DNA of 17,331 nt from Kiritimatiellota bacterium (GTDB lineage Bacteria; Verrucomicrobiota; Kiritimatiellia; JAAZAB01), in assembly GCA_008636095.1 (NCBI GenBank), contig VSJD01000264.1:1-17331 (forward strand), in the 5' to 3' direction. A model generated the notes under the pieces. The model had not been told where the DNA came from. It did not search any database and was given only the letters and a program-made list of their open reading frames with translations. This document shows, one piece after another, positions 12,070-13,018 of the stretch. Position 1 is the stretch's first letter, and each line of letters opens with the position of its first letter. A program made the translations under genes and the position numbers.

Positions 12070-12468
12070 TTACCGTTTTGAGAACTGGAAGCGTTTGCGG
12101 GCGCCCGGCTGACCGGATTTTTTGCGCTCCTTCATACGGGCGTCCCGGGTGAGAAAACCGCTGTTCTTCAGCACCTCGCGCAGGGATTTGTCCGCTCGGA
12201 TCAGGGCCCGCGCAATCGCATGGCGCAGGGCGCCGGCCTGGCCCATGGTGCCGCCCCCGGTGAGTTTGGCAAAGACATCAAACTTGACGTCCGTGTTGGT
12301 CAATTTCAGTGGTTGGAGCACATAGTTGCGGGCGGACAGCGAGGGGAAATAGTCCTCGAAATTCCGGCCGTTAGCGAGTAGTTTGCCGGTCCCTTCGATC
12401 AGTTGCACGGAAGCGACGGCATTTTTACGCCGGCCCGTGGCTTTAATAGCGGCCTGGGTTGTAACCAC
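12070..12468 (-). CDS. rpsI: 30S ribosomal protein S9
   Basis: This 132-residue protein of the small subunit head has a C-terminal tail that reaches toward tRNA in the P site. The diagnostic start TGRRKNAVASVQLIEGTGK, the middle LTGGGTMGQAGALRHAIARAL, and the basic end KKSGQPGARKRFQFSKR with terminal Lys-Arg are all present and full length. The start codon is GTG at 12468, with AAGGAG (12476-12481 on the complement) 7 nt upstream. It lies 14 nt after the rplM stop, the conserved rplM-rpsI order. Confidence 0.97.
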   Translation of the reverse strand: MVTTQAAIKATGRRKNAVASVQLIEGTGKLLANGRNFEDYFPSLSARNYVLQPLKLTNTDVKFDVFAKLTGGGTMGQAGALRHAIARALIRADKSLREVLKNSGFLTRDARMKERKKSGQPGARKRFQFSKR

Positions 12469-12482
12469 TTTTTTTCTCCTTA

Positions 12483-12983
12483 TTAAACAAGGGGCTGGGG
12501 CTCGCCGGCAACGCTACCTGCCCGCAGTGGCTTCGCCACAGGCGATGCAGGCGGGTGCGTAGCATCGCGGGCAGGGCTCTGGCCGGCGTGGGGATGCTTA
12601 TCCTCCGCATAAACCTTCAATCTTTGAAATACCTCGCGCATGAGCCGGTTCTTGGGTAACATACGTTTGACGGCGTCATAAATCATACGCTCCGGATTAC
12701 GCTCGCGCATTACGGATGCCTTGATTTCCTTGAGGCCGTGCCGGTAGCCCGAGTAGTCCGTGTAGATTTTCTGATCATTCTTTTTGCCCGTCAGCTTGAC
12801 ACTGCGGGCGTTGATCACGACGACAAAGTCGCCCGTATCCACGTGGGGGGTGTAGGTCGGCTTATGCTTGCCGCGCAGGCGGTCGGCAATTTTCACGGCG
12901 AGCCGGCCCAGTGGCTGGTCGGCGGCATCCATTAATAGCCAATTACGTCGGACGTCTTCCGTCCGGGGTATCGTTGTTTTCAC
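12483..12983 (-). CDS. rplM: 50S ribosomal protein L13 with a 26-residue C-terminal insertion
   Basis: This is an early-assembly protein of the large subunit. The family core is clear: RRNWLLMDAADQPLGRLA, IADRLRGKHKPTYTPHVDTG, VKLTGKK and RMIYDAVKRMLPKN. I place the start at GTG 12983, giving MKTTIPRTEDVRRNW as in other L13 proteins, with AGGAAG about 9 nt upstream. A GTG three codons earlier abuts the Shine-Dalgarno and is unlikely. The length is 166 residues against about 142 in E. coli. The excess is residues 135-160 (12504-12581), coded by a palindromic element dropped in frame between HPHAG and EPQPLV. Without it the protein would be 140 residues with a normal end. The two parts of the L13 C-terminus are thus separated but the frame is kept. 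Confidence 0.95.
   Translation of the reverse strand: MKTTIPRTEDVRRNWLLMDAADQPLGRLAVKIADRLRGKHKPTYTPHVDTGDFVVVINARSVKLTGKKNDQKIYTDYSGYRHGLKEIKASVMRERNPERMIYDAVKRMLPKNRLMREVFQRLKVYAEDKHPHAGQSPARDATHPPASPVAKPLRAGSVAGEPQPLV
12503..12588. repeat. Cloverleaf-like palindromic element inserted in frame inside rplM
   Basis: Nested stems are CGCCGGC/GCCGGCG (12503-12509 with 12582-12588) and CCTGCCCGC/GCGGGCAGG (12517-12525 with 12567-12575). Two inner hairpins follow: GTGGC-ttc-GCCAC (12527-12539) and GCGATGC/GCATCGC (12542-12548 with 12562-12568, competing for two bases with the outer stem). All arms are perfect. On the coding strand GCCGGCCAG and GCCGGCGAG stand at the two junctions, a possible short duplication of the target. 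Confidence 0.8.
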
Positions 12984-13018
12984 AGTATTCACCTTCCTGT
13001 AAATGTAAAAGAAATGAA

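Follow-up and report, generated by a model that had tools for sequence, protein, structure and literature searches.

The gene for ribosomal protein L13 (rplM) of a Kiritimatiellota bacterium contains an in-frame insertion, which is very probably built from a short, non-autonomous palindromic repeat that occupies a precise site in the gene, is dispersed through the genus and behaves in a REP- or RPE-like manner; its mobility we infer. The window, that is, the whole stretch of DNA analysed (17,331 nucleotides), is contig C223 of the source MAG G000 (3.8 Mb in 357 contigs, 87% complete), and was compared with four congeners (G001, G002, G003 and G004) and with the relatives G005, G006, G007, G008 and G009 of the same family.

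rplM was located on the minus strand at 12483..12992 as a 169-aa ORF with a 25-residue insert. The ORF has a GTG start in G000, relatives begin three codons downstream, and the translation given in the ORF list terminates in ...HPHAGQSPARDATHPPASPVAKPLRAGSVAGEPQPLV. An L13 match was obtained in 37 of the 38 genomes searched, G000 among them, and PF00572 was assigned to the 120 L13 protein relatives listed. By comparison with the empty sites of G001, G003 and G004 and with the 36-bp insert of G002, the composite palindromic insertion PARDATHPPASPVAKPLRAGSVAGE was delimited to 12501..12575 (minus strand; 75 bp, equal to 25 codons), where it adds 25 residues, with the predicted peptide stretch ARDATHPPASPVAKPLRAGSVAGE, five codons ahead of the stop and with the frame kept. 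The insertion consists of two units. The outer element totals 36 bp, and its 5′ arm CCTGCCCGCGATGCTACGCA (12556..12575, minus strand) and 3′ arm TAGCGTTGCCGGCGAG (12501..12516, minus strand) differ from the G002 element at the same site in 1 of 20 and 2 of 16 positions, respectively. The inner element of 39 bp (12517..12555, plus strand) occupies the loop of that outer unit, between its ACGCA and TAGC. The native L13 tail PQPLV and the stop (12483..12500, minus strand) are in frame, and the same residues are present in G002 and G004. rpsI, encoding ribosomal protein S9, is the next gene downstream (12070..12468, minus strand) and is an open ORF; the order rplM then rpsI was seen in G000–G004.

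Locus comparison identified the rplM site without insert in G001, G003 and G004. The empty site of G004 reads GCCGGCCAGAGCCCTCAGCCCCTTGTTTAA, that of G003 is nearly identical, and that of G001 is diverged and also empty. In G002, GAGC is followed by the 36-mer CCTGCCCGCAATGCTACGCATAGCGTTGCAGGCGGG and then by CCTCAG (site GAGC^CCTCAG), and the net gain equals the element length exactly, with an ambiguity of up to 3 bases and without a clear target duplication. Across the genus, L13 occurs in three states, namely empty, with 36 bp added, and with 75 bp added in nested form. The original prediction that a palindromic repeat lies in frame in L13 and contributes protein sequence to it was borne out by the three empty congeners and by dozens more copies in G000, and its outline had to be redrawn: where 78 bp at 12504-12581 and 26 foreign residues had been proposed, the sister genomes give a net 75 bp at 12501-12575 and 25 residues. 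The proposed junction repeat GCCGGCcAG/GCCGGCgAG proved coincidental; GCCGGCCAG is native in G001, G002 and G004 (G003 reads ACCGGCCAG there), and GCCGGCGAG represents the right end of the G000 element after divergence, G002 having GCAGGCGGG at that place. Both the 78-bp cut and the GCCGGC junctions arose because two substitutions sit in the right end of the outer unit. The stems, described as perfect and nested, are in fact imperfect and belong to two elements, one within the other; the outer unit is found by itself in the sister species G002, and the nested composite was absent from that prediction.

L13 tails were fetched from 30 loci (G000 and 29 relatives), 28 of which were read by script, with L022 and L033 left unread and spurious additional matches in L026 and L029 discarded by eye. 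Alignment of the relatives' L13 confirmed that the extension is not general: 34 residues follow HPH in G000 and 21 in G002, and the remaining 26 of the 28 loci have 8–13. Among the 120 listed L13 homologues, 30 were read, and in these 22, 21 and 19 residues follow HPH in P0028, P0107 and P0117, respectively. Within the same 30, the tail of P0028, NPAALAAPGAAGGPKPPVT, is alone in resembling an insertion before a native-like end and, judged by its sequence, is possibly an independent repeat insertion at the same place of L13. The branching of G000, G002 and G004 received a support of only 39 in the concatenated tree, which takes in some residues upstream of the true starts and for which rpsI was aligned for G000, G001–G004 and G008. 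Because the genomes are species-level MAGs and no insertion event was observed, loss of the element in some lineages, instead of gain, is possible; G004 may have lost the insert or may never have possessed it.

Both L13 units belong to one dispersed family, CCTGCCCGC...GCAGGCGGG, which was searched for with the pattern TGCCYGC-N(8-38)-GCAGGCGGG, using the reversed pattern as a control. Further copies, as had been anticipated, were found in G000, with 47 pattern matches at 43 distinct places (4 overlapping another) and none with the reversed control. The congeners yielded 107 (G001), 96 (G002), 37 (G003) and 26 (G004) matches, with 1, 0, 0 and 0 in the controls; within the same family, 61 were found in G006, 34 in G008, 1 in G005, 2 in G007 and 3 in G009. 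Class-wide, at least one match was present in 124 of 193 genomes, with 0–7 per genome for the reversed control, and more than 20 matches were reached in only 10 of the 193 (G000–G004, G006, G008, G103, G163 and G182). The candidate explanation that the repeat is confined to rplM was ruled out by the dozens of matches elsewhere in G000. As regards the mobile element originally proposed, dispersed copies and empty and filled sites are documented, and the movement itself we infer.

The ends of the element are near-invariant, partly through the choice of pattern, and the loops are variable; units are mostly 32–45 bp long, with 36, 32 and 39 bp as the commonest lengths. Flanking bases are often complementary (AT in 49 and GC in 46 of 165 copies), and one more base pair may therefore belong to the palindrome. 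Six 36-mer copies in G002 (L258, L269, L299, L336 twice and L338) have the common flanks TTCATGTGGGAGG..ACTA / TGTGC.GCGA; a longer repeat therefore carries the element at these places. In G103, which belongs to another family, 82 pattern matches were counted, and 16 of the 20 displayed are variants of one unit ending in TGCGCAGGCGGG or near it; the copies of this genome are a separate expansion.

Host genes other than rplM were named after inspection of their Pfam matches and sequences. In PheT of G000, PARSATHSVAGG lies between the tRNA-binding and B3/4 domains (+36 bp, site GACGGA^CTGAC); the insert is missing in G002, G003 and G004, and G001 gave a weak PheT fragment match only. The ThiL site CCCTG^CCGGAGC, just ahead of the AIRS domain, contains an additional 45 bp in G000 and 75 bp in G002 and is empty in G001, G003 and G004. 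In GlnE of G000 the insert lies inside the Pfam GlnE match, and it is absent in G001, G002 and G003. A DinG-like helicase and a PMT-family glycosyltransferase are further hosts in G000, and a MotA/ExbB protein and a CoaBC-type DFP protein carry copies at their C-terminal ends. HflX contains the repeat within its G-domain match; following identical bases, G001 carries a single unit and G002 a tandem pair. Hosts in G002 and G001 include an aminotransferase, YacP, an M20 peptidase, a phage-integrase-family recombinase and a cytidylyltransferase-like protein, among others. L132, L185 and the N-terminal stretches of L133, L144, L147 and L191 were left out as cases, as they may lie upstream of the starts or be spurious.

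For the analysis of reading frames, 171 distinct copies were available in the fetched loci (44 in G000, 88 in G002 and 39 in G001), which are partly non-independent, some being common to several species and at least 6 lying within one longer repeat. Coding flanks were called by codon-usage scoring of 120-bp flanks, and same-strand coding was assigned on both sides of 20 copies, on one side of 38 and on neither side of 113. Nineteen of the 20 both-flank copies are in frame and open and one is frame-shifted; the 19 represent 17 sites, with HflX counted three times. In an earlier pass with 150-bp flanks and 73 copies, all 6 both-flank copies kept the frame and left it open. Lengths divisible by three were found for 53 of the 58 copies with a coding flank versus 64 of the 113 without one (Fisher p = 1.6e-6, with copies treated as independent). 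The frame test is weakened by the fact that 117 of all 171 copies are already multiples of three; on this baseline, 20 out of 20 would arithmetically be expected by chance about 5 times in 10,000. For L13 alone the in-frame state is weak evidence, because just five codons follow. Both flanks were coding in 20 of the 171 copies versus 1297, 1364 and 1281 per 3000 random positions in the G000, G002 and G001 loci, respectively. Copies are rare in genes, and those present almost always keep the frame, a pattern which selection after insertion accounts for with no need of targeting.

The inner 39-mer of L13 in G000 occurs in identical form and in the same nested position in the 75-bp ThiL composite of G002 (L218/L259), and on the G002 contigs C173 (L304) and C310 (L360). 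The nested arrangement was flagged computationally at five places (L001, which is L13, L005, L259, which is G002 ThiL, L358 and L360), and nine copies, read by eye, lie between GCTA/ACTA and a TGCG-type half of the outer unit. Inner units measure 39 bp in L001, L259, L304, L309, L358 and L360, 36 bp in L005, and 32 bp in L261 and L344; L002 and L004 are likewise nested, with different inner units. The differing inner units at one loop position favour the loop as a landing pad, or an exchange of loops between copies; movement of the 39-mer composite as a single unit is also possible. The content of fixed sites differs by species, with 36 versus 75 bp in L13 and 45 versus 75 bp in ThiL. At its left end, the G002 ThiL composite (L218) matches the 9-base sequence of its right flank, CCGGAGCGC, as though by conversion or copying from there.

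The repeat would spread by insertion of copies, probably through a single-stranded hairpin intermediate that is processed by a putative trans-acting enzyme. Within genes, copies would persist only if their length, the frame and the fold of the protein permit it, and the 25-residue addition to L13, if translated, would probably be a neutral, disordered tail. Further change would take place in the loop of a resident copy, via nested insertion or loop exchange between copies. A bolder version, which we put forward tentatively and consider rather unlikely, is that a resident palindrome in an essential gene acts as a landing pad for its own family, with different inner units nesting at the same loop point and in multiples of three within genes, that the hairpins build the tails and loops of L13, ThiL and HflX stepwise at fixed sites, and that the mover is other than the known REP transposases.

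An alternative that deserves serious attention, although we lean against it, is that the repeat is a REP moved by an HUH tyrosine transposase (RAYT) of G000, in an ordinary REP/REPtron system. Y1_Tnp (PF01797) matches were obtained four times in G000 and 25 times in eight of nine relatives. The element has palindromic ends; among 165 copies, the preceding base is a purine in 87% and the following base a pyrimidine in 93%. No clear target-site duplication, as would be expected of a MITE of a DDE transposon, was detected in L13 of G002 or in PheT and ThiL of G000, where the net gain equals the element length and up to 3 bp are indistinguishable from matching ends; this fits IS200/IS605-type chemistry, in which insertion takes place without target duplication. 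CTAC, the reverse complement of GTAG, was counted close to the 5′ end of 24 of 165 copies and straddles that end in 22, but many of these 22 derive from the loop of the outer element or from one longer repeat, and CTAC is missing at the three sites with a known empty state. GTAG itself is no general end tag: just 1 of 165 copies has it near the 5′ end and just 3 have it near the 3′ end, and the same counts were obtained for CGTC. The element was present in none of the fetched flanks of 29 Y1-transposase loci (4 in G000 and 25 in relatives), 19 of which are truncated on one side where the contig ends; because of these cut loci and the copy density, the result means that no enrichment was seen and does not imply exclusion. 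No mobilising enzyme was found beside the element in the Y1_Tnp loci of G000 and its relatives, and the copy-rich G002 (a MAG of 70% completeness) gave no Y1_Tnp match. The RAYT-like Y1 gene of G000 at L039 is apparently bordered by a different inverted repeat, seen in the translations on both sides as CYMLRRVPN...YVETRPQ on opposite strands, which from its sequence is perhaps that gene's own family. A hypothetical HUH enzyme that acts in trans on the dispersed repeat is plausible.

Two readings that place function at the L13 locus itself were also weighed. Selection of the hairpin for an mRNA role at the rplM–rpsI junction, in transcript stability or S9 synthesis and with the residues as a by-product, is improbable. 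The insert does sit just ahead of the L13 stop, rpsI is the adjacent downstream gene, and the fold of the insert is strong, with -29.6 kcal/mol for 101 nt of the minus strand (DNA parameters) versus a shuffle mean of -20.9 (z -3.48) and an equal stability reached by 1 of 200 shuffles; REP hairpins are also thought to be active in mRNA (PMC3733652). The element is, however, missing in three of the four congeners, the G000 hairpin is unlike the G002 hairpin, and members of the same family lie at unrelated positions of unrelated genes, a distribution which such a role leaves unexplained. An adaptive L13 extension on the ribosome surface is very unlikely. Frame and stop are preserved, and the insert has persisted, given that its outer arms differ from those of G002, but repeat-derived peptides span all six readings in unrelated proteins (translations read by eye), and the extension varies between close relatives. 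It is also predicted to be disordered: the AlphaFold2 model of L13 has a mean pLDDT of 71.7, with residues 139-169, native tail included, below 50, which is consistent with a floppy C-terminal end. An assembly artefact in the form of a repeat-induced chimera, suggested by the fragmented MAG (357 contigs) and by the exact repetition of the inner 39-mer elsewhere in the genus, is hardly credible, as the outer arms differ three times from the G002 copy and therefore are no pasted consensus, the outer element is seen at the identical base position in G002, an independent MAG, and rpsI follows rplM in G000–G004.

In-frame intragenic REPs are already known, from the Rickettsia RPEs and the GTAG-REPs of Opitutus terrae, and Kiritimatiellia belong to the same superphylum as O. 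terrae. RPEs are palindromic repeats of ~150 bp that are found in frame in unrelated genes, where they are translated, and also outside genes (PMC10969869). The present repeat likewise lies in frame within unrelated protein genes and is also extragenic, and it differs in its length (mostly 32–45 bp, 75 bp for the composite), in its Kiritimatiellia-type genus and in its use of several reading frames; the two are likened by behaviour. Intragenic GTAG-REPs are described as most numerous in the verrucomicrobium O. terrae and CGTC-REPs in R. conorii, with DNA-repair and RNA-related genes among the hosts of intragenic REPs and with more than half of the inserts being dimers or groups (PMC3733652). 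Short REPs within conserved genes are common to the GTAG-REPs and the L13 family, but the latter is without general GTAG or CGTC ends, no transposase gene was found beside it, and one unit sits in the loop of another, not beside it. CGTC-REPs are intragenic units with no dedicated transposase known (PMC3733652), which resembles the situation here, except that CGTC was near the ends of just 1 and 3 of 165 copies. IS elements are described to insert into REPs as their targets (PMC1525189), whereas the inserted unit here is of the same short repeat family and no IS.

The setting had been put forward as novel, which holds in part: in-frame REPs in conserved genes are known elsewhere (PMC3733652), and the repeat family, its ribosomal-protein host and the in-gene fixed-site loops that differ between species appear to be new. 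'Ribosomal protein' is not mentioned in the main text of PMC3733652, and the literature searched contained no publication on a REP within ribosomal protein L13 and, by title, no prior description of the L13 repeat family in Kiritimatiellota. Translated selfish palindromes, a rare phenomenon, are hereby extended to an uncultured genus and a ribosomal protein, and the natural empty, one-unit and nested states in close relatives allow their spread and their absorption by essential proteins to be tested. Protein annotations of MAGs in this group include repeat-encoded residues and should be used with caution.

Two of the host proteins show additional length variation. PheT of G000 (L125) contains a further in-frame insert, SADQAPPERSAQARALRPGEPG, at residues ~497-520, which G002 has as well and which G003 and G004 lack; another repeat may be involved in it. 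In GlnE, Gly-Pro-rich repeats (TPGTPGAP) of variable length are found in G000, G003 and G004 and are missing from that position in G002 and G001 (L150, L278-L281). The residues RWSGSDCGQ occur elsewhere in GlnE of G000 and G002, where they may represent an older fixed copy; the G002 stretch is encoded by the palindromic repeat.
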